Assembly (NCBI GenBank): GCA_949775045.1
Contig: OX459096.1
Location: forward strand, 41,146,959 to 41,210,958
From: Metridium senile
Lineage: Eukaryota; Cnidaria; Anthozoa; Actiniaria; Metridiidae
Length of the DNA: 64,000 nt
Direction: 5' to 3'
Positions 7,701 to 57,100 of the stretch are shown one piece after another. The position numbers were made by a program, and so were the translations under genes. Each line of letters begins with the position of its first letter. Positions within the stretch are counted from its first letter, which is position 1. The notes under the pieces were generated by a model, which did no database searches, was not told where the DNA came from, and worked only from the letters and a program-made list of their open reading frames with translations.

Positions 7701-10700
7701 AACAAAACCTCCAGATGCTGCACACTTTACCACTCCATAGGAAACTTGTTTTTGCAGAAAATTTGATTCTAAATGGCTTCCGGGCTCTTCAGGCACTCCT
7801 GATTGGCTACCAGGGGTCACATGACTCAACTTGCAACAAAGAGATTAGTTGTGCAACGAGTTGTGTTCGTGGATTGTAAAAATGAGCACCGTGGCGTTGC
7901 AACTTGCAATGCAACAATGTTGTGAGATGAGTTGTACGTTTTTGTTGCTCACATTATCGTACCTTTAGATTGTAGCTACAACTTACTAGATTTAATGAGT
8001 GATCTTAATGGAAATGCTTTATTAACAAAAGTATGAATGTGAAATATTATCTTATGACTCTTTAATTGCATATATTTTTCTTAGATAAAAGTTGCAGCAT
8101 TACAATGCCTGGTGAAAATAATGTCCTTATACTATCAGTTAATGGAGGAATATATGAGAGTTGCTCTCTTTGCTGTAAGTATTACAGTTCTAACACTTGA
8201 ACTTACTTTATAAACTGAATTATTTCCATTTTATTTTACACACCTAAATGCTCAAATATTGCACCTTGTACCATAGGGCACAGTACTTGGTCAAAGCTCG
8301 ATAATTATTAGAACTACTCTAATCTAAGATCAACCTTAGGTTTTAATGCGTTAAACTAGGATTAGATATGGCTTTATTCAACCAATCCCAGATGTTAATC
8401 AGCTGCCGAAGTTACAGTGTAAAACACAAATGTTTGACCTTAAGGCCTTTGTACTGTTAATTCTCACCAAAAAAAAACCCCTCCAATTTTCTTGTTACAA
8501 GCAAATAAAATATGTAACATGAATATAGTATGTGAATCAATGCATTAAAAGTGGTCATACTTTAGTGATTCATGCTGTTATAAGTGAACATGAAAAAATG
8601 ATCTTAATATCTGTTTTAAGAAAAGATTGTTAAAGATACCTTTGGTAGTGATATTTCGCAAAATGTAAAAATAATGGATTCACTCACAAAAACTGAAGTT
8701 GATTATATATTAACATAATATTTACCAGTATTTGCTTAATAAATGACAACAATATTGTTAATTACAATGATTCCAACAAAATTATAAATTTATGTTAAAT
8801 TTTATACATGGTAAAAACAATAAACTTGTAACTATATACCTTACATGAAATGTTGTCTAGAAAGGTTTTTATTCAATTATTTTTGGATTAGTCTAAATGT
8901 TATTTGCTTATATGTACTATTATAGATAACTATGGAAGCTATTAGATCTAGTTGTGATGAAGTCAGTCTACAAGGAATAGAGTTCTGGTCATCTGTGTGT
9001 GATGAAGAAATGGACTTGGCTATTGAGTTTGCAGAGGTATGCTAAGTAATCTTTGACATATTTATTTTATAATATTTATTTTATAATATATTTATAATGC
9101 GCAGGTGAGCATCTTCCCATGAATCCACGCGCATTATATACTTAGGTAATAAATTATTAAATTATTATTACAAACAATTCATAGATACACTATCCATTGT
9201 GTTCCATCTTGTAATTTATGTATTCTAAGAGTACTTTGGGAAAATCTTTCTGAAATCTACAATGTTTGTCAGACATTCTATATTCCAGTCGAAATACTGC
9301 GCAATTGTTTCATGTTCACTCGAACAAATTCTGGATCTATGAATTGAACAAGTTGATCAGTATATTACTCGACTGTTTCTTTACTCTAGGCACAAGAACA
9401 AAACAGATCTCCAGAGCAAACAAGTCGTTTTTATTCTAAAGGTGCCCTTATGCATCTCATTGGACCATTGACAGAATGTTTAAAGAAACAGGTAAACACA
9501 ATGATGATGATGATAATGATTGTATTTGTTTTTATCATTGATGATTATGACTATAATGATATAATTTTAGTTGTATTTGTTTTTATAATGGTGATGATGG
9601 TGGTATTTGCAATGATAATGATAGTAATAATGATGATGATGATAATAATAATGTAATGATTATGAAGGTAATTGTGGTGATGATAATTCTGGTGGCAACA
9701 ATAATAATTGTACTTGTTTATGGATATAAATAGCATAAATATTCAGACTTTTAAAGCAAATTTTCATAGCATTTGCCTTTGAAACACTCTCTATGTTCCT
9801 GGTTATTTTCAGGAAGAGTTTGATGACGAAGATGACTGGATACCATCAAAAGCAGCTAGTGTTTGTTTAATGCTGCTTGCCCAGTGTTGCGAGAATGCTA
9901 TTGTACAACCTGTGTTGAACTTCGTACAGGAAAATTTTCAAAGTCAAGATTGGAGAGAAAGAGATGCAGCTATCATGGCATTTGGTATGTGCCAACACAA
10001 CATTGAATTTTAGAATGGTCGTGTTTTTCAATTTATTACAAGCTCTTGTAAATATTATAACAGAGCTCGAAATAGCTGCCTGTCAATGGCCAAATATCAG
10101 GCTAATTTCAAGGTTTGGCAGGGTAAAATTATTATGAACTGCCAAATGGATAATGAAATTGCACTCAAAATTTACTGGAAATCATATTTCACAGATTCTG
10201 CATCTGGAAGTGGCAGGCCAAATTAATTTCTTAGTTCGAGCCCTGTATAATAGACAGCAGATCAGATAATGAAAGTTTTGCTTAAATAATCAATACCTTC
10301 TCCAAACAATCTTTCCTTATTACCTTCAAAGTACTAGATAATAATTCATTTAGAGTCGGTTTAAGTGGACCCATCCAATAGTGAATGTGTGTGTGGTAAA
10401 AGCATTCTTATGGAGGTATTGATTTGCTATTGTAGGTGCTATATTGGAAGGACCTGATAGTGCTTCCTTGGAACCCTACATTACATCAGTAAGTACAAAC
10501 AGTATAAACAGAACCAAGTCATCCTTTCACAATAAAATAAATACACAAATGGAAGGATGAATGAATGAATATTTAAAGGAATCACTGCGAATGACACTAG
10601 ATAATAATTAATAGAATTAATGATGAGTGACCTTCTGTGAGAGCAAGGGCCTTTCACCACTGTGAACTAGTAATAGTAGTAGGTTCTTGTATAGCGCACT

Positions 10701-13700
10701 ATACATATGTCTTGTGTAAACATGATAGTCATAAAATCAATGTGCGTAAATATACAATGAAAATTTAAAAGACTAAAGAGTCACTAAGAAATAAATTTGT
10801 TTTCAATAAAGTCTGAATCTAAGAACTGGGTATTGATTCTTGCTCAACAAGTGAACTGAGTTTGTTTTTATGTGTCTATTTTCTGCTGGTTATCCAGTTT
10901 TCCTTCCTTGACAAAAAGAGTTGTGTGTTGTAGATATTGAATGTAATGTTAGTGAGTGTCAGTGAACATATACATTACTGTTATGACCAAATAAGTGAAC
11001 AACTGACTCGCAAACTGAGTGACAGATTACTGATTGGCTGAGCAAATGAGATGAATGAATGACAAATGAATGATTTGTCTTGTCAGGGTAGCCAGAACCC
11101 CTCTAGAAATGTGCACCTTATCTGCAAATAAACACTTAACCCTTACACAAATAAATTAATGAATGAAATGTTTCTATTTGTCTTAAAAATAAAGGCACAT
11201 CTTGGTCAATAATAAGTGTCACTTATTGCCAATAATTTATGTTTTATGATTTTTTTCCCCCAGGCTTTGTTACCTGTACTGGCTGAGAGAATGAGTGATC
11301 CATGTGTATCTGTAAGAGACTCTGCAGCTTGGGTCATTGGCCACGTCTGTGAACTGATGCCTCAAACAATTATCAATGAACAACATCTTGAAAAAATAGT
11401 GACAACACTCGTTGAAAACTTAACAGCAGAACCAAGGGTTGCAGCTAATGTTTGTTGGGTAAGTAAGGGCCTCTTTAAACAGGCCCAACATATTAGTCCA
11501 ACACTGTTGCTCCAACATTTTGGACCCATTTCAGGTGGATCAAAACTTTCGCAAAGCAGATTTCTTGATTTTTTTAACTCGCTCGCTTCGCAAAAGTATC
11601 GCGCCAATTTAACTGAAATTTTGATATAATATAATTTGGTTATTCTACCTATTAGCGATGTACTTTATTTGTACATTTTCTTAGTGGTTTATTGGAAACA
11701 GTGGATTTTCAAACGACGGTATTTTTAGTTTTTACCGATTATTTCCAAATCCAACAGTCCGATCGTTATCAAAGTTTCAGGATCTTATAATCACTTATAA
11801 AGCTCTAGGTCCTGTGAACTTAGTTGGAAAAGCTGGGCTAGAAAAAAAGATATGAACATGGTTCAAATTTGAGGCCGTAATCTGAAGCATATAAAGTATA
11901 GAGCTTTAGAATAAATAGTATACATAGGATTACCTTCAACTTTCAGTATCTTAATGCTCAATTATTCTTAATAAATATATCAAAATTTCAGTTTCATAGC
12001 TTCGAAATTAAAGGAGTAATATTTTTTTTAACTGAAGGTACGTAGAGACGGTAAAATATGAACTTTCTTTAAAAATCACATTTTCCCTGTTTGCTTTAAA
12101 ACTGCTCCAGAGATTTCTTTTAAATTCCTAATATCAATAGTTCAAGGCTTTATCTAAGTCATAGTGAAGTTTGTATGGCTTGTCCTATCCTAACTTGGAA
12201 GAAAATATTTTTTGAACTCAGGTATATTTATCCGTTGTACAACGCTTCTGATAATGTATTCAAGTTCGAACAGCGACACTGAACTCGGCCGTTCCGCATT
12301 CTTGCGTTCGGAAGAATATTTGCATAACGACAAAAATATCGGGGGGTGACTGCCATAGGACACAGGAAGCCCAACAATTCAGGCTTTGCGCTAAAATTAC
12401 GTACTTTATGACACTAACATCGATGAGAAACGTAATAAAACACAACTGTGCATTACCGAACTAATACATACCGCACGAATAAATGGATAAACATTTCATG
12501 AAACAATGAATGTTCGCAAGTCTATTCAATCTAAAGAATTCAATTGTAAGAGAAAATATTGAAATCACACTAGATATAGAGTATAATAAATGCTAGTAAA
12601 ATAAAGGATATATTTAGTGAAAGTTTAGTTTGCAAATCCAGTCAAAAAGTACGTAATTTTAGCGCAAAGCCTGAATTGTTGGGCTTCCTGTGTCCTATGG
12701 CAGTCACCCCCCGATATTTTTGTCGTTATGCAAATATTCTTCCGAACGCAAGAATGCGGAACGGCCGAGTTCAGTGTCGCTGTTCGAACTTGAATACATT
12801 ATCAGAAGCGTTGTACAACGGATAAATATACCTGAGTTCAAAAAATATTTTCTTCCAAGTTAGGATAGGACAAGCCATACAAACTTCACTATGACTTAGA
12901 TAAAGCCTTGAACTATTGATATTAGGAATTTAAAAGAAATCTCTGGAGCCGTTTTAAAGCAAACAGGGAAATGTGATTTTTAAAGAAAGTTCATATTTTA
13001 CCGTCTCTACGTACCTTCAGTTAAAAAAAATATTACTCCTTTAATTTCGAAGCTATGAAACTGAAATTTTGATATATTTATTAAGAATAATTGAGCATTA
13101 AGATACTGAAAGTTGAAGGTAATCCTATGTATACTATTTATTCTAAAGCTCTATACTTTATATGCTTCAGATTACGGCCTCAAATTTGAACCATGTTCAT
13201 ATCTTTTTTTGTAGCCCAGCTTTTCCAACTAAGTTCACAGGACCTAGAGCTTTATAAGTGATTATAAGATCCTGAAACTTTGATAACGATCGGACTGTTG
13301 GATTTGGAAATAATCGGTAAAAACTAAAAATACCGTCGTTTGAAAATCCACTGTTTCCAATAAACAACTAAGAAAATGTACAAATAAAGTACATCGCTAA
13401 AAGGTAGAATAACCAAATTATATTATATCAAAATTTCAGTTAAATTGGCGCGATACTTTTGCGAAGCGAGCGAGTTAAAAAAATCAAGAAATCTGCTTTG
13501 CGAAAGTTTTGATCCACCTTAAACACCCTGTTGGATGATGTTGGATGAAACATTATCCAACATTTCTTTTGTTCTTGTGTCCAACAAACCGTATCGTAAC
13601 ACTGTTGCTCCAACATGTCTGGCCCATTTAAACACCATGTTGGACGATGTTGGATGAATTGTAACAATTTTGGTCCAAGACTTCTTTTTTAGTTTGCCAT

Positions 13701-16700
13701 TATCATCCTGATTGTTGTATTTGTCTGCTGCAAAATACTTTTATGTTTTTGATGACGAAAGCCAAAGAAGTATTTCACAACAAACTATTGGAATGTCTGA
13801 GTTCTCCAAAAGTCAGAAACCACAGTAAAATATAAATTATTCCCCTTTCCTTTTCTCAGGCATTTAATTCTCTAAGTGAAGCTGCATACTTAGCAGCTAG
13901 TGACCCTAACATGGGGGATGAACCAGCAACATACTGTCTATCAGCTAACTTTGCAACAATAATTGAAAAGCTTCTTGAAGTAACTGTAAGGTAAGCCTTT
14001 ACTGAGAGTTTCACACTTATTAAACTATAAAAAATAAAATTACATTTAATTTAATGTGGAAGAAACGACTTCTAATTAATTATGATTCCCACTTACAAGG
14101 AAATATTGGATATAAAAAAACTATTACAACCATTATAGTCAAAGTGTGACCTTTGAAGCATGAAGTCTAGTTTTAAAACCTGGAGTCAAATGGATGACCA
14201 TCAATGCAATTTACTTAACCAAGTCCTACCAAGTGATAGTGATACAAAATGTCAATTCTGTAAACTTGGAGATTAAACATACTAAAAATGTACAATGCCC
14301 TGCATATATATATATATATAATGACTAAATTTTATGATTTGGGGTAATGAGGTTTTCTCTTATTGTTCAGAGATCTATATATGTACTTACATGGTTTCCT
14401 CGTTGTTGTCCAACTTTTTGAAATCCTTTCTATTTTCTTATTGCAGGCCAGATTCAAACCAGTGTAATTTAAGAAGTGCAGCTTATGAAGCTATTATGGA
14501 AATGATAAAAAACAGTGCAAAGGTATGTATCCATACTCTAGACCAGTTTTATAAGCAGCTATAGTTTTGGATGTAAAAAAAGGTAGAAACAAAACCTATT
14601 CTGTTTTTACTATTTATTGGTATGTACATACATGCGAAATTGTATCACATGCTATCAAGGAAAAGATGAAGCATTAAAGAAATTAAAACTCAGTGGTTAA
14701 TTTACTCACATTGCTGAAGTCATTCCTTCTGATTGCATGAAATGTCTTTCTCTTTTCAGGATTGCTACAGTGTTGTCCAAAGTACCACCCTTCTTATCAT
14801 TGAAAGGCTACAACATATTCTACAGATTGAGGTATATACCTAGGTGGTGTAGTGTTTGAATATGCAAGTAACTAATCCCTTTACTCTTTACATTGAATGT
14901 GTAGAAACAAGTACAGAATTCTGACAGGAGTCAATACAATGACATGCAGGCATTACTGTGTGCAACATTACAGGTGGGTGAACTGATAGATAATGATGGG
15001 CTTTGTGATACTAGACATCTTGCATCTTGGGATGATGTTATACCTTGTTTTTTTTTGTATATGATAGCTCTGTTGTTTTATATGATAGTTCTGTCCTGTT
15101 GCTTCATTTCAACAATGAAATAGAGGGATGGAGAAGCAATATCAAGACCTGTACGATTGACCCTCTTTTAAAGCATTAAAAGTTTTTTCTTGCATCTTTG
15201 GATGATATAATACCTTGAGACAATGTTGTTTTATATGATATCTCTGTCCTGTTGCTTTATTTCAACCTTGAAATAGAGAGATGGAGAAAAAGTATCCTGA
15301 TTGAAGTGGATAAAACTAATTATATAATCATGTACAAAAACTGAATGCCCTCTTTTTGTCTTATTTCTCATATTGTTGTTCTGTTCTAACCAGAGTGTGT
15401 TAAGAAAAGTCAGTCCATCAGATGCACTACGAATAGCTGATCCTATTATGAACGCCTTGTTGATGATGTTTGATACTTCAGCAAGAGAGAATATCAGTGG
15501 AACTCAGGAGGATGCTTTGATGGCTGTAGGGACTTTAGTTGAAGGTAATATTATCTTGCAGTCATTATTCAAAGAGCATGTTATATCAGTATAAATGCTA
15601 TAGAGTACTAATTTGACAGTGGAAACATTAGCAATGACACTGTTTACATACAGGCTCAGTGAATATCGGTTAATAATAACCTCGACTCTGTCTCGGTTAT
15701 TATTCACTGATATTCTCTAAGGCTTTGGCGAATAATTGTTAAATATTCCAGACGTTTAGCACTAAATTGTTACCATTTTCTTGTAGTTATTGGTAACAGT
15801 TTTATGAAATACATGGATCCCTTCCTTCCTTACCTGGAGGTTTCTTTGAAGAACATTGCAGAATACCAGGTTAGTCTCATACCTTGTCTGATAGACACAC
15901 TTATTTTTTTTTACAAATATTGGGAGTTATTAAATAATTGTTGTTGTTTTATTGCAGGTGTGCATTGCAGCCATTGGTCTTGTAGGAGATATAGCAAGAG
16001 GTCTTGGAGTCCATATAACTCGATACACTGACTTATTTATGAACATCTTCTTAACACATCTTGCTGTAAGTATGGATAAACTGGATAAGAGTTATCCAGT
16101 GTATAGAATTTGTATAGGTTTTATCTGTTGGATAGGGATTTATCCGTTGGATAGCGCTATTCAGGCTTCGTACAACTTCCCCTGGCATTTACAATCAAAT
16201 GAGGAAATTATACAAACAAATCATGCTTTGCATAAAAATGTAATCAAGAAGACATTTTAAATGATAATTTGTGTTTTCCTGTAACAGGATGAAAATGTGC
16301 ACAGGTCAGTCAAACCTCACATTCTTTCAGCATTTGGTGACATTGCCCTTGCTATTGGACCCTACTTCAAGAACTACCTTGGATCTGCTATCAGTGCCTT
16401 GAAACTGGCTTCTGAGTTTAGAGTGGAAAAGGTATTGATGATATTATAGTCAGTAGGCAGTATATAGTATGTTAATAGGCAGTACCCTGTGAGCTGTGTT
16501 TTTGTTCTCTAAGGGTAAGAGAAAAAAACCCTTTGTGTGTTGGGTAGATAGGCAGTAGAACACTTAATGTTTCATAGACATTTACTCCAGTAGATAAGCC
16601 TGTGCAGTTGGCTATATAAGGAGATTAGGAAGAGCAGGAAGGAGAGAGGGGAGTAAGGGAATTCTTTCAATCAGTTTAGAGAGCAAGTCAATAGATACAC

Positions 16701-40300: not shown

Positions 40301-43300
40301 ATATTTTGAGAACAAAAATTCGAATCTACAAACAAGGCTAAGCTGACTTTCCCTTATGAAAATTTACCATGAATACTAAATGCACTTGCACTTTAATATA
40401 TCTATTTTCAATTACTGATTGAGTAACTTCCTACCTCTTTATTTGATTTTCTATTAATAACTCATTTTTAGTAATTAATGGAAATATTTGTTTGTCCTCA
40501 TACTTATTCTTGTTTAACACTACAGCTTTGGTAGACAGATATACATACTTCCCTGTGTTGGAAAATGAAGGAATAGAAAACGCGCGTGCGTGCTGTGTGC
40601 AGTTATAAAGCATGCAGGGATTCACAATAATAATAATAAAAAATCTTTATTGGGTATCAAATAAAGCAGAGCTTTTTTCCAATCTGGCCCATAGACTGCG
40701 AAGAATAATTGTTTTTAGATAAATACGAAGGTGATAATTTAAAGAAAGTAAAAATATCCATTAAAAACTGTTCATTTCCTATGTCTTAAAAGCGCATTGG
40801 ATGAATATCGAAAAATAGTCCAAAGTTCTCAAACCAATCAGTAAGTGCATATTTATACCAATTATTATTGGAAGCTACATTTAGTGACTAAATCTGCTAG
40901 TGCTGTATTATAAAATAATACAGAACATAAGAGAAGTGTTAAGAGAAGCACGTGTTAAGAGTGCTTCTCAACACTTTTCGAGTGTTCTGACAATCCCTAA
41001 GTGCTTTATAACTGTATACAGCACAGAAAGCAAGTTTTCTATTTCTTTTATAAAATACAATTTGATCAACATGCAAACACGCGTGCTGTGTGCTCTCATA
41101 TAGCAAGCGCCTCAACCAATCAAAATATGTGATTTCAAATAGTTATTTATAGCACTAGCAGATTTATTCACTAAATGTAGCTTCCAATAATAATTGGTAT
41201 AAATATGCACTTACTGATTGGTTTGAGAACTTTGGACTATTTTTCGATATTCATCCAATGCGCTTTTAAGACATAGGAAATGAACAGTTTGTATAGGATA
41301 ATGGATGAGCTCCGAGGCTTATTAAAAATATTATATATAATATATATAATTTGCAATAAGCCGAGGAGCGAGGCCATTATCCCATTTAATACACATTCTC
41401 ATTGTTTTCGAAGGAAAACCACTTACTAACAATTCCCAAAGGGTCCATTAACTAAACTATTTTTCTTGTCCGTCCCATGGGACCAATGCTAACAATGTCT
41501 TTTGTAACAAGTATCGGTTGGTCAGATAGCATACAGCGTTAGGTGTAGGAATTCGAAGGCAGAGATTGCGGGTTCGAATCTCGTTGGTGTCATTTGATTT
41601 TTTCTTTACTTTAAATTCAAGTCTAAGCCAACAAGGGGCCATTTCACTGCGCATGCGCGTCATGCTTGAATTGCCCTGGTCATAGCACTTGTTCGTAGCA
41701 CGTTCTCTCAGTAGAGGTGCTCACATAAAGATATGTTGAAGAAATCCGTTTTTTCTTCTTCTGTAATTAATTGATCAGACTCAAATAATAAGGCTGATAT
41801 CGAATATGTGTCCTATATGCGATTCAAGCGAAATCATTGGAGTATTGTTTCGAGAAAAAATGTTAAAAGAGTCATTCAAGCTGACTCGCGAAGAAGAGAA
41901 AATGGCGACTGTAACGTACTTTGTAAACATACTTTGCCGTCGGTATAACTCAGGAAATAAGACTATCTGATGCCAGGTCTTTTAACACGATGAGTGGGAT
42001 GCTATTTGTACTGTAACACAACCTTTTGTGTTAAAATCGACTGCAATGGGTGGCGAAAATTTTCACATTGCCTTCATGTCAGAATTGATAAATTCGGGCT
42101 GTTTGGCATTTTTCATCTTGAAATGTTATTAAATGTAGTGAAAATACCAATGTGTTTTAAGCAGAAATGATGATATCCATATGCATTGGTAATGTTTTAT
42201 CGTGAATCTTTAATTGGAAAATTGGGGAAGATGGATTTTTTTGCCAATTAAAGATGTAAACATTGTTTACATGGTCATTATTAATTGGTCAAAACTCTTG
42301 AACTTCGAAATACTTGAGCCTGAAATAAGTCACATTTAGTTTATGTACCATTCATGAAAGGAGATCCTCGATATCCCAGCAATCGAACAATTTGTTGGCT
42401 TTTTATGAAGCATCAAACACAGTATGATTATCATCCTCGGGAACCCAGGGGTATTCTTCTGTCGCTCGTTTCTCGCTTCCACAACATATACCCCTGGGAA
42501 CGTAGTCTGTTGGAGCTTGTTCCGGAAGTCAAAATTCAGCTCTTTCCTGATTGGTCGACCTTATTAGGTCGACCAATGAAAATCAAGATAACCATTCAAA
42601 GAAAGTCGTTTTAAAAATAAGTTTGAATTTTGACTTCCGGAACAAGCTCCAACAGACTACGTTCCCAGGGGTATATGTTGTGGATGCGAGAAACGAGCGA
42701 CAGAAGAATACCCCTGGGTTCCCGAGGATGTATGATTATGCGAATATGGTTATTATTATTCTTGATTACATGGCTAACTTCTGCGAGAGAATACCACACA
42801 AATTCCATTTGATTTTATGTCCTTTGTTTCTATACTTTCGATCTATCATGTTTGATTTGTTGGAAAAATTGGGTAAGGTAGCAAAATTTTCAATTTTCTG
42901 CCATAAAAAGTGCTGCTTTGTCTAGAATTTTGGCTCCTTCTGCTTCATTCATTGTTTAAATTAAGTCTTTTGTTATTTCTATTGAATTACGTAGACTGTG
43001 TTTCTGCTACACTCACAAATAGCAATGGAAATGATAAGAAAGATAGATAAATATAACAAAACACAATAGCTTAGCGACATTTGGTTACAAGTGAACGAGT
43101 GGGTAGCCTGTGGTGAGCCTGCATTGCGATGCCACAGTACAGCATTTCGCGCATGGTCATGCAAAATGGCCCCTTGTTGTCTAAGCCTTAAGTCTAAGTT
43201 TCATATCTATCAAAGTATCTTTCAAACCTCGATCTGGATCAAAATAATAACCTCTAGCTCCAAATAATAACCTCTGGTTCTTATTGAGTGACTACAATAA

Positions 43301-44814
43301 TGACCTATGAATAATTAATTCATCAGCCCCACTCTTCCCTGCTGAATTCAAAACCCTCCCCAGCTTGAAGATTCTCGTAAATAATAACTACTTCGAAACA
43401 TTGAAAGTGTGTATTAATTAATGGATATTTTTACTTTTTTTTAAATTATCACCTTCGTATTTATACTAAAACAATAATTCTTCTCAGTCTCTCTTCTCAG
43501 GCTCGCTCCACTCTCTCTCGGTTTTTATTCGTTGATATTCACCTCGCCTTTGGTGAATAATTGTTTGAGCCTATTCATGGTGTACAAAAAAGTTCTTTAA
43601 TAAAACAATAACACATCTATCACTAGTGTTGCAGTTCCTTGAGCAAAATATGTTATTTCAACCTGGATATGACGTCTTCAACTTTGACAAAATCTGAAGA
43701 CATGAATGGCCGGCATGAATAGTCAATGAGCTGCGTTGTGAGCTGCGTTGTGAGCTGCGTTGTGAGCTGCGTTGTGAGCTGCGTTGTGAGCTGCGTTGTG
43801 AGCTGCGTTGTGAGCTGCGTTGTGAGCTGCGTTGTGAGCTGCGTTGTGAGCTGCGTTGTGAGCTGCGTTGTGTGCAAAATAATTAACGTAGAGGTAGTAA
43901 GTGTGTGTCTGAGTCTCCCCAATTAGCCACTTGCTAAATACATTGAGACGTTAAAAAAAAAGTGATTTATTTTTAATGCAGAGTTGTTGCAGGTTCCGCC
44001 CCCCTCCAGTCAACAACAATCACTGTTTACAATCTTACGAAGATTACTGTTTGAGTCTTATGGTGTTTATCAGGTCAATAATCAATCGAAACATCCCTTA
44101 CGCATAAGAAAAATGAAAAAATGCTGAAGAACGAAGTAAAAGTGTTGGAAAAGTAGGCCAGAATTGTGTACACAGGAGATCCCGCTGTGGTTTGTAAACC
44201 GCCTTTACTTGGTTTTTATGCAGCAAATACGAAAGTTAACGCCTTAAATGACAACAAAACTACATCGAAATATTTGATTTGCTTACCCTGTATCTTTTCT
44301 GCTGCTTTATTACCACGTTTTGCTTTGAGCTGCAACAGAAAACGTCCAAAAATATCCTCTGCAGGGCCGTAAATGTCGGCCATATCGAATGTAGTAAGTC
44401 CTGCATCGTAATATGTAAACATATCCTCAACAGCCCGATCGACATCAATGGATCCGTGCGAGCCTGAAACTTGCCACATTCCATTTATAATACGACGAAC
44501 TTGTAGGCTGTTCCTCAATCGACATAACGAAACCGTGGACATATTAACTGTAGACCCCACAATCAACTAAATAACCACATTTTGGGACGAGAGTTGACAA
44601 TCACAAGAATCTCAAGTTGGATATAGGAGGACTACTCGACCCAGTCTCTAGCGGACACCGACTACCGATATTTGCTGACTTGGCAAAAAAAGCCAAAAAT
44701 TAATTTTACGCTGTTTAGTTATCAAAATGCCAAAATTTGAAAAAGCTTTTTTATGTGATAACTTTAATAGTAAAAAAATAACAAACTTACCATTCGTTGA
44801 GCGCTTGACAACAT
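37376..44814 (-). CDS. Aldo-keto reductase, three coding exons (first one tentative)
   Basis: NAD(P)H-linked oxidoreductase of the AKR superfamily; the substrate cannot be told. Coding exons on the minus strand: 44814-44791 (tentative, eight residues MLSSAQRM, donor ATG|GTAAGT), 44566-44287 and 38145-37376. This gives 357 aa in phase throughout; starting instead at the ATG at 44542 gives 341 aa. The fold is covered from NGMWQVSG (beta-1) to the C terminus. The tetrad is intact: Asp69 and Tyr74 in FDMADIYG, Lys105 in ALTKW, His140 in LQFHWWD (numbering of the 357-aa model). The cofactor-side segment [15 protein letters not shown] matches AKR IxGxR-type loops. The last intron (~6.1 kb) is full of repeats. 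It is divergent from the EFHB gene, 1.46 kb apart. The family resembles uncharacterised AKRs of corals, fungi and plants rather than the classical AKR1 group; this is a judgement from motifs. Confidence 0.88.
38185..38512. mobile_element. 328-bp inverted-repeat element in the reductase intron
   Basis: TTTAGTGATAAAACTAATGACA at the left and its exact inverse at the right, with inner arms CACTTGCTTGTGTCATTATC and partner. It lies 40 bp from the acceptor of the last reductase exon. The middle is AT-rich and non-coding. Confidence 0.8.
39021..39616. repeat. Repeat-derived patch with (TATTG)n tail and CCACAGGAAGCCCAT motif
   Basis: A short (TATTG)n run at 39139-39163 follows ATAAATAAAAATTATTG, which looks like the 3' tail of a retroposon. 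GAAGCCCAAACCAT occurs at 39025 and 39166, and ATGGGCTTCCTGTGG, identical to the inverted terminus of the MITE at 61072-61300, lies at 39601-39615. Element boundaries are unclear. Confidence 0.4.
40627..40720 (-). mobile_element. Possible LINE 3' tail, minus orientation
   Basis: Read on the minus strand the segment ends ATAAAGATTTTTTATTATTA, an (ATT)n-tailed terminus preceded by AATAAAG, as in many LINE-type retroposon tails. No reverse transcriptase is present, so only a severely 5'-truncated copy could be involved. Confidence 0.35.
40765..41290. mobile_element. Foldback element with 140-bp arms
   Basis: Arms 40765-40904 and 41151-41290 are almost exact inverted complements (from AAACTGTTCATTTCC to CTGCTAGTGCT and back), with a ~246-bp spacer. 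The left arm has AGTGACTAAATCTG where the right gives AGTGAATAAATCTG, one of very few differences. It lies in the reductase intron. Confidence 0.9.
41296..41385. repeat. Short hairpin next to the foldback element
   Basis: GGATAATGGATGAGCTCCGA-GGCTTATT faces AATAAGCC-GAGGAGCGAGGCC-ATTATCC across a TA-rich loop (AATATTATATATAATATATA). It begins six bases after the end of the preceding foldback element. Confidence 0.65.
41520..41592 (+). mobile_element. tRNA-related SINE head (possible)
   Basis: TTGGTCAGATAGCATACAGC resembles a degenerate A-box/D-arm, and CGGGTTCGAATCTCG 50 bases downstream is a good B-box that can form a T-stem with wobble pairs. No matching acceptor stem is present, so this is not a functional tRNA gene. 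It fits the 5' region of a tRNA-derived SINE. Confidence 0.4.
42423..42739. mobile_element. MULE-like palindromic MITE with 9-bp target duplication
   Basis: The 299-bp element (42432-42730) has ~105-bp arms starting CATCCTCGGGAACCCAGGGG and ending with the inverse; the centre contains GGTCGACC-TTATTA-GGTCGACC. It is flanked by exact copies of TATGATTAT (42423-42431 and 42731-42739). A 9-bp duplication with long terminal repeats is the Mutator-like pattern. Open frames at 42354-42925 are generated by this palindrome. Confidence 0.92.
43728..43871 (+). repeat. 12-bp minisatellite GAGCTGCGTTGT x 12
   Basis: Twelve head-to-tail perfect copies of the 12-mer. The unit length is a multiple of three, so it gives clean open frames on both strands (Ser-Cys-Val-Val and Thr-Gln-Leu-Thr repeats) that have no start context or family. 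It lies in the reductase intron. Confidence 0.95.
43880..43980 (+). repeat. Dispersed repeat also present at 6730-6835
   Basis: GTAGAGGTAGTAAGTGTGTGTCTGAG...CATTGAGACGTTAAAAA...AGTGATTTATTTT follows the same order as GTAGAGGTAGTGAGTGTGAC...CATTGAAACATTTAAAAAGTGATTTATTTT in KPNB1 intron 6. A third fragment may lie near 10870-10965. Confidence 0.6.
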
Positions 44815-54123: not shown

Positions 54124-57100
54124 CTAAGAAGCCATTACAAAAACTGCAATGTAAGCCTCCTCTAGTGGACAGTAAACATCGGCAGGTAATACCAGCATAT
54201 CTTTTCCTTTCTCTTTCTCAAGTTTAAACCCTAAAGCCAACAGCAGATTCTTCCCTGGGTTTGATGAATGTGTGTAGATTCTCTTAACCTTGGGGTCATC
54301 AGCTGAGGTGTTCTTACCATACATTGCACTACGTATCTGCAAAGTGAATTTCAATACATTACAGATATTTGTATTTATAAATGAAACATTAGTGAACTTT
54401 GAAATTTCATAAGTTGAAAGAAAAAAATACATCAGAAAAAAATAAATTGCCCTTGGTGGGACTCGAACCCATGGTTTGGGCTTCATAAGTAGGAGAACAC
54501 ACTTCCTCAATAGAAATTTATTTGCGTCTTGTTGTTTGAATCACTGATAACCAGTGAATGCTCACTGATAACCAGTGAATGCTACTTATAACAATGGTGG
54601 CTGAAGAAGCCTTTGTGGATAATTTGGTGTCTTGTAACACCAAGTGTCCAAAAAATTGATACCTTTAATTTGTTATTTCTACTGAACTGTTTGGGAAAAC
54701 AAAGGTTAACAATCAGCTTACCAAATACAAGAGTTGATCACAGTATTCTGATGTGAGATCCTTCAGGGCACTGCACTGTTGACTGGTAAGACCTGCATGA
54801 ACAAGAAATTCATATTAGTTTTATCTTAATGATTGTAATATCATATAATCATTGCTCATTAGTATTGCTGTTAGAATTATCATAACTTAATTATTATATT
54901 TATTTTTTCCTTGATAAATATATAATAAACTGCATCATCTATCGATTGAACGATTGGACAATTCCTGGCACAGAAACTTGATCAATAACCAAGTTGACAT
55001 ATTTTACCATGTAGAGCAGTTGCAAGCCCACAGCATGATAAGACCAGATCCTTGAAATCATCCTCAGGATAGATCACTTTTCCTTCTTTATTGTCATCAA
55101 ATGTAAAGCCTAAAATCTTGAGTAGTTTCTCCCAGACATTGCAAGAACCAAACAAGGTTTTCAAGTCATCATGGGTGTATGGCTTGACTTTTTCTTTATC
55201 AAAGAAATCACAGGCATCATCAAGCTGCAGAAAACAAGTAAAACATTATACCCTTATCAGCATCACTAATATTATTCCAATGGTTTAGAAATGCTCATAG
55301 GGTGAAAATACTCAAATGATTCTCAAATCACCAAAAAGGATTTGAATCCATTTCACCTGTCAGTCTTTCATCTATTAGGGACCAAATGTTCATTTTTTTC
55401 CAAGTGCGATATGAATCTAATTCCCTTAGTCAGTGTTACATTTTACTAATCATTTCTTATCATGAAGGAGAGGTGGTGATTGGTGAATCTTTGCAAAAAT
55501 GTTTGTGTACCTCAATTAGTTTTAATTTGTACATCGTTTTTAAACATGACTTTCCTTTCAATATATAACTTTTGATGCCTGACGCCCCCTCCTTTAATTA
55601 TGGCCATTTTTGGTGTGTCCTCCCCCTTAATATCACCAGCATTTTGTCCTGATAATACTATATTGTGAAGTACTGCTTTTCGTTGAACATTCATTATTTC
55701 AACGTAAGAATAACTCTTAGAATGTTTTGTAAGATCCGGTTAGGTAGACAATTCAATACAAAGTTATGAATACATTCATTTGTAAATTTCACATATGAAA
55801 TATCATACCAAGTGTTCAAGTTTTGCCAAGCATTCTGGGGTAGCTAGGAGTTCCCTGAAGCATGTGATGATGTCATTTTTGAGTGGAGAATTCATCAATG
55901 CATTGAAAGCAGATGTCAGTGCACTATCTGATATGTACAACAAAAATTGAATAATTTTGATTGTTACAAATATTTTCTAAAGCATTTTATTACATTAGCA
56001 TTATCAGACCATGATTTTGGACCATTATCGTTTGATGGTCTAAGGACAGTTGATCAGTGATAAGGACAGTCGCTCAGTGCTAGGGACAGTTGATCAGTGC
56101 TAGGGGCAGTTGATCAGTGCTAGGGACAGTTGATCAGTGCTAGGGGCAGTTGATCAGTGCTAGGGATAGTTGATCAGTGCTAGGGACAGTTGCTCAGTTG
56201 ATCAGTGCTAGGGACAGTTGATCAGTGCTAGGGACAGTTGATCAGTGCTAGGAGCAGTTGATCAGTGCTAGGGATAGTTGATCAGTGCTAGGGACAGTTG
56301 CTCAGTGCTAGGGACAGTTGATCAGTGCTAGGGACAATTGATCAGTGCTAGGGACAGTTGATCAGTGCTAGGGACAGTTGCTCAGTGCTAGGGACAGTTG
56401 CTCAGTGCTAGGGACATGCACAGTTGATCAGTGCTAGGGATAGTTGATCAGTGCTAGGGACAGTTGCTCAGTGCTAGGGACAGTTGCTCAGTGCTAGGGA
56501 CAGTTGATCAGTGCTAGGGGCAGTTGATCAGTGCTAGGGGCAGTTGCTCAGTGCTAGGGACAGTTGATCAGTGCTAGGGACATGCACAGTTGATCAGTGC
56601 TAGGGACAGTTGCTCAGTGCTAGGGACAGTTGATCAGTGCTAGGGACATGCACAGTTGATCAGTGCTAGGGATAGTTGATCAGTGCTAGGGACAGTTGAT
56701 CAGTGCTAGGGGCAGTTGATCAGTGCTAGGGACAGTTGCTCAGTGCTAGGGACAGTTGATCAGTGCTAGGGACATGCACAGTTGATCAGTGCTAGGGACA
56801 TGCACAGTTGATCAGTGCTAGGCTAGTGCTAGACTTCAAAAAGTTATCCTCAGGGTTGTTATTTTGTAATCCAATAACTTAGAATCCTAATTAAAAATGC
56901 TCCTACCTGCTCCATCTGGTTGATCAAGTGCAGGTGACATCTTCCCATCTGGTGCATCAGACACTACATCTTCTAGTTTCTTGTCTATAGTTAATTCTAT
57001 TTGACCATATCCTTCAAATATATTGACTTCATAGCATCCATATGCCAAGACAGTGTCTTTTGGTATGTCAAAGGAACGATGATGTGTGTCTTGGACAGAT

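Follow-up and report, generated by a model that had tools for sequence, protein, structure and literature searches.

Galileo and Tetris have been described as foldback elements (PMC4168063, PMC4079207), and hence the kind of element considered here is already known. One Galileo copy has 959-bp ends that are 99.9% identical, and a 9-kb copy consists only of its two ends (PMC4168063). Long ends, as proposed by the authors of the Galileo studies, attract recombination and conversion (PMC3573991). The Kolobok superfamily, reported from cnidarians, is defined in the cited accounts by the TTAA target and by 5'-RR...YY-3' termini (PMC9587614, PMC6004289). The terminal motif of piggyBac elements is CC[C/T]T, and MITEs are usually under 500 bp (PMC2872659).

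The window, that is, the whole analysed stretch of 64,000 nucleotides from Metridium senile (C2:41146959–41210958), contains a long palindrome, described in an earlier note as near-perfect, with limits at 11533–13519 and a 228-bp spacer. The self-alignment of the window yields inverted arms at 11529–12412 and 12641–13523 (884 nt, six mismatches and one gap) with a spacer of 228 nt. Thus the palindrome and the spacer length agree with the earlier description, and the limits do not: they exceed the element by one base on either side, as the element without its target site occupies 11534–13518 (1985 nt). The left arm (11534–12412, forward strand) begins with GGTGGATCAAAACTTTCGC, and the right arm (12641–13518, reverse strand) is its inverted copy; the arms are 879 and 878 nt long and differ by five mismatches and one gap in 879 nt, leaving perfectly paired runs of 117, 34, 154, 239, 21 and 304 bp. 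The inverted ends account for 1757 of the 1985 nt, that is, they make up most of the element, as in foldback elements. The spacer, or loop (12413–12640), has three parts. The 50 nt at 12413–12462 have no match in the relatives and replace one loop flank, the segment 12463–12604 is the common loop (94% identity to the copies L010 and L012), and 12605–12640 is equivalent to the inner arm end of L010 and L012.

The right copy of the target site (13519–13522) is TTAA, and the left one (11530–11533) is TTCA, apparently a mutated TTAA. A tandem paralogue of the flanks is situated in the same intron (13598–13658, forward strand). It lacks the element and runs uninterrupted across the insertion point, providing the empty site CCCAT-TTAA-ACACC. 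No coding capacity is seen in the element, and no homologue was found for the 81-aa frame that spans an arm and the loop edge. No tandem repeat is reported inside 11534–13518 at score 50, no Rfam family matches within the window at the gathering score, and the search against viral contigs yielded no exact 23-mer match. When folded as RNA, the inner 1000 nt have the energy of -727.9 kcal/mol, compared to -205.3 ± 6.4 kcal/mol for 20 shuffles. Since this is far more stable than the shuffled sequences, chance is excluded, and the palindromic inverted repeat is confirmed as real.

The host intron (11459–13859, forward strand) has the donor GTAAGT at 11459 and the acceptor CTCAG ending at 13859. 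It separates the exons 11270–11458 (5' limit approximate), whose translation ends with AANVCW, and 13860–13991 (3' limit approximate), and the reading frame continues across the splice as NVCW|AF. The gene is taken to be KPNB1-like (importin-beta), as its exons were matched to a human KPNB1 sequence; the matches extend from 2.1 to 18.5 kb of the window. The exon matches, splice sites and frame bear out the placement of the palindrome inside an importin-beta intron, also made in the earlier note. KPNB1 is in general constitutively transcribed, and the intron transcript is predicted to be able to form a long dsRNA stem, a putative substrate for the editing, small-RNA production or splicing effects suggested in the earlier note. 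The window also contains a Krueppel-like factor gene whose identity to Krueppel-like factor 6 of Nematostella vectensis is 83%, in keeping with a probable sea-anemone host.

The palindrome is not unique in the genome. We searched 389,276,800 bases in 169 contigs with one arm and obtained 71 matches, which were paired by hand into at least 37 sites; this is a lower bound, since the best 40 of 131 candidates were scored. The exact sequence TTAAGGTGGATCAAAA, consisting of TTAA and the element end, occurs 118 times (57 + 61) in the whole genome, and its reversed control does not occur at all. In total, 59 sites were sampled (37, then 8, one pair of ends on C11, and 13), many of the last 22 being read just 1.5–2.2 kb inwards; one of the 59, L064, has merely the 16-mer in common with the family. 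Both ends are present in 32 of the first 37 loci. All 32 two-ended copies, the window included, have GG...CC termini (GGTG...CACC), and 30 of the 32 are flanked by TTAA on both sides, the exceptions being the window (TTCA on the left) and L010 (TTTA on the right). The dispersed element family supposed in the earlier note is thus found. Over the outer 100 bp, the arm ends that received a score (the best 40 of 151 candidates) show 100% identity, and the end of L017 bears a small gap.

Comparison of 96 flanks demonstrated that they are unrelated save for three locus pairs, L018/L019, L055/L067 and L029/L039. In the former two pairs the similarity reflects duplicated segments. L018 and L019, both of subfamily B, are located about 32 kb apart on C13; their flanks match in all 200 nt compared on either side, and their arms have one difference, so this is a segmental duplication carrying the palindrome. 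On the other hand, L021 (C2:37638310) and L028 (C4:15841465), also of subfamily B, have one differing site over both arms and unrelated flanks. Such near-identity at unrelated places indicates that the family has moved recently. Intact copies are 1.6–2.0 kb long and consist of two arms of about 0.8–0.9 kb and a loop of about 20 to 228 nt. Being non-coding with inverted ends, they resemble MITEs; their size does not. Hence we assign the window palindrome, with a probability of roughly 85%, to a dispersed family of non-autonomous foldback-type DNA transposons that insert at TTAA and whose ends have expanded to fill almost the entire element.

The family may be divided into two subfamilies. Subfamily A (the window and L009–L013) has, in its intact copies (the window, L010, L012), arms of 879–919 nt and a loop of 179–228 nt. 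In subfamily B the arms are about 795 nt and the loop is about 20–25 nt. The subfamilies are 98% identical over the first 120 bp and 73–81% identical beyond 600 bp; better-kept ends are as expected if the transposition machinery needs them. One-armed copies are seen as well (L013, L016, L022). Other palindromes occur in or near members of the family. An unlike palindromic element of about 300 bp (L027:3833–4134) lies within the short loop of a subfamily B palindrome, and a 303-bp palindromic short element of the window (42431–42733) is 97.7% identical to an insert (L030:2139–2437) in the deleted subfamily B copy L030. The C10 stretch L045/L013 contains, at reverse coordinates 8372–9069, one more long self-palindrome (91%, about 700 bp) that is outside the TTAA palindrome family. 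Tandem repeats of the window include a 20-bp minisatellite, CTAGGGACAGTTGATCAGTG, at 56040–56774 (about 35 copies) and a perfect 12-bp array, TGAGCTGCGTTG, at 43727–43872 (12 copies).

In subfamily A, the arms were compared over the first 850 alignment columns. The window arms differ from each other in 5 of the 850 columns, and from the arms of other copies in 18–29 columns. Changes private to the window among the sampled arms are present in both arms in eight columns and in one arm in five, with 0.0025 identical coincidences expected if the arms mutated independently. For L010, L011 and L012, there are 1, 1 and 9 private both-arm columns, respectively (five of the nine in L012 being one 5-nt insertion), and 10, 7 and 4 private one-arm columns; the expected both-arm numbers under independent mutation are 0.0016–0.0098 over the four copies. 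The homogenisation effect is strong in two of the four copies and weak in two, L010 and L011, with a single symmetric change in each. The loops of the window, L010 and L012 are 94–98% alike. Such a common loop points to one ancestral palindrome in which the symmetric changes arose later, and hence to homogenisation of the arms.

For subfamily B, we considered 24 copies and 24 diagnostic sites that distinguish the left arm from the right one, several of them adjacent at the loop; L030, L034, L038 and the one-ended copies were excluded. In five of the 24 copies (L017, L023, L031, L036, L041) at least four consecutive diagnostic sites are equalised. The remaining 19 have from 0 to 6 equal sites and no such run. 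Some equal sites are common to several copies and hence are inherited.

The earlier note had offered recent origin or gene conversion as the reason for the near-identity of the arms. For the window copy, homogenisation between the arms accounts for the data better than recent insertion does. Its recency is at odds with the distance of 18–29 columns from the relatives, the eight private both-arm changes and the TTCA copy of the target site. Divergence of the arms as an age clock was rejected, since the arms homogenise. Homogenisation could predate the insertion, having occurred in source elements, or it could reflect exchange between copies.

Palindromes in general tend to break at hairpin tips. 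With the limit of 16 nt, chosen after the first ten copies, and with end points hand-read from BLAST tables, a deletion or truncation stops at most 16 nt from the loop or the arm/loop boundary in 13 of the 26 copies that bear one (7 of the first ten, 6 of the later sixteen), and the other 13 break elsewhere. Among 20,000 simulated random placements, the mean number of such tip breaks was 1.37 and the maximum was 8 (p ≤ 5e-5). Copies with small gaps only were left out of the set, and so were L064, the duplicate L056 on C11, and two copies that bear insertions, L027 and L069, of which the latter would have been a miss. In L016, L022, L059, L060 and L065, one arm and about the loop are followed by unrelated sequence or, in the case of L059, by a scrap of the far end. 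Some of these half-palindromes could be assembly errors at palindromes.

Indeed, palindromes are hard to assemble, and the fact that half-palindromes stop at the centre in several copies might suggest that the whole structure is a false inverted duplication produced by hairpin reads. However, copies that share their ends and are bounded by TTAA on either side occur at many sites, with flanks that are unrelated save for the three pairs, the arms carry copy-specific differences, and a paralogous empty site exists. As TTAA-flanked copies are found elsewhere in unrelated surroundings, an assembly artefact is very unlikely, close to negligible. Another explanation retains the palindromes and dispenses with arm-to-arm conversion: each of them might have arisen anew by inverted duplication of one diverged arm. 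One-armed copies that could serve as such a source do exist (L013, L016, L022), and four further both-arm changes are common to the window and the one-armed L013 only. At that, the loop shared by the window, L010 and L012 argues for descent from one palindrome, and in subfamily B the left/right differences that hold family-wide are wiped out in runs within single copies. Hence we consider repeated origin by inverted duplication unlikely, and retain homogenisation of the arms as the preferred reading. Finally, the palindrome might be kept as a regulatory source of dsRNA for importin-beta, acting through editing or small RNAs. While the intronic arms do fold into a near-perfect stem, an equal structure is present at many other genomic sites and nothing peculiar to the importin-beta gene was observed, and thus such a role seems highly improbable. 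The intronic copies allow one to test whether long intronic dsRNA in cnidarians is edited, diced or tolerated.

The features of the family correspond to the Kolobok definition, as both the 4-bp TTAA target-site duplication and the 5'-RR...YY-3' termini are observed, and a Kolobok-type transposase is the probable source of its mobility. In the case of piggyBac, the TTAA target fits, but the CC[C/T]T terminal motif is absent, the ends being GGTG...CACC, and piggyBac is thereby excluded. An autonomous Kolobok partner would have the family ends and encode a DDD/E transposase with THAP and H2CH motifs. No element with both family ends and a transposase was found among the 59 sampled sites, many one-ended sites being read 1.5–3 kb inside the end. 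At L047, L048, L058, L060–L063, L065 and L068 just 1.5–2.2 kb inside the end were covered, so that an autonomous element of great length might have gone unnoticed there.

Four candidates for the autonomous partner were considered. L013 with its neighbour L045 has one arm, no second end in about 10 kb and a weak DDE_Tnp_4 fragment. L046/L054 retains 143 bp of the end and a small inverted arm piece, has no second end in 8.2 kb, and its open frame matches no family above the cut-off. The convergent ends L055/L056, located 20 kb apart on C11, might delimit a long element. However, the short copy L067 has an identical left flank over 50 nt and is 96% similar to the right arm taken together with a short flank, and the interior of L055/L056 encodes OTU and DUF6570 domains, a combination presumably typical of Helitron-like elements. 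Given the L067-like flank and arm and this interior, L055/L056 is interpreted as a duplicated copy that received an insertion later. At L055 itself (C11:4872839–4875838), an open frame of 892 aa that encodes OTU and DUF6570 is inserted 40 bp inside the family end and contains DVELNPGP, which we take to be a 2A-like motif; the insert is probably a Helitron-like element. The last candidate, L057/L070 (C1:10850868–10854800), has a DDE_Tnp_4 frame beside a rearranged end and is not proven as a partner.

The latter case raises the possibility that the family is moved by a PIF/Harbinger-type (DDE_Tnp_4) transposase rather than by a Kolobok-type one. The 360-aa open frame of this locus has a DDE_Tnp_4 match (E 1.1e-23) and lies about 1.1 kb inside the family end at C1:10850914, and the fragment 2.2 kb inside L013 has a below-cut-off match to the same domain (E 3.8e-4). 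However, all that is left of the family element at the C1 locus is its outer 17 bp and a piece of the inner arm, followed by an apparent end of another element, presumably Tigger/pogo-like, and no right end could be recognised with confidence within 3.9 kb. Moreover, DDE_Tnp_4 genes are abundant in the genome (153 matches, with the best 150 of 557 candidates scored), so that one of them near a family end is not telling. No DDE_Tnp_4 gene was seen by eye between two family ends among the matches listed, covering 100 of the 118 ends and 150 of the 557 candidates; the L057 gene itself is absent among the listed matches of the genome search. Harbinger target sites usually have three bases, and here TTAA is present on both sides. 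A Harbinger-type mover is therefore an improbable one, and a Kolobok-type transposase remains the preferred candidate.

Taken as a life cycle, these observations may be arranged as follows. A transposase, most likely of the Kolobok type, would act in trans on the conserved ends and move the element by cut and paste. Pairing of the arms into a hairpin or cruciform in the chromosome, or recombination within the element, might allow a change in one arm to be copied into its partner. A break at the hairpin tip would remove one arm partly or entirely, so that a half-palindrome remains, and a copy in a transcribed intron should yield a long dsRNA stem. A stronger and rather doubtful possibility is that the family actively keeps itself palindromic, that is, hairpin-mediated arm conversion in the life cycle restores the mobility of each copy by providing two equal ends, with tip breaks being the cost. 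If so, this would be a transposon that evolves as one arm and not as two, and the hairpin might be an intermediate of transposition or repair.

Thus, in kind, the element is a foldback, non-autonomous DNA transposon with Galileo-like behaviour and Kolobok-like ends. Among the titles and abstract openings of the open-access papers listed by our literature searches, none evidently describes an anthozoan foldback element that combines the TTAA target with Kolobok-like ends. In animal genomes, long palindromes are difficult to study and prone to instability, and dozens of dispersed natural ones, with visible homogenisation of the arms and deletions concentrated at the centre, form natural replicates for palindrome repair and conversion in animal cells. 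Kolobok and the non-autonomous T2-MITEs share with the family the TTAA target and the 5'-RR...YY-3' ends, here GG...CC. The Xenopus elements described in these accounts are 6.8–13.9 kb long and are listed with short termini only, whereas the element considered here is filled by its inverted ends (PMC9587614, PMC6004289). The coral CMITEs, similar to piggyBac and to our family, have the TTAA target and are non-coding; unlike the palindromes, they are about 100 bp long with short ends, and have CC[C/T]T in place of GGTG (PMC2872659). The closest published case in behaviour is Galileo, the foldback-like element of the P superfamily in Drosophila, with its very long inverted ends; however, it has target sites of 7–8 bp and internally repetitive ends, and here the duplication is TTAA and no tandem repeat is reported in the arms (PMC4168063). 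Finally, the palindromes of the human Y chromosome also feature recombination and gene conversion between arms, but they are huge single gene-bearing loci, whereas the palindromes described here are members of a small dispersed transposon family (PMC7999016).
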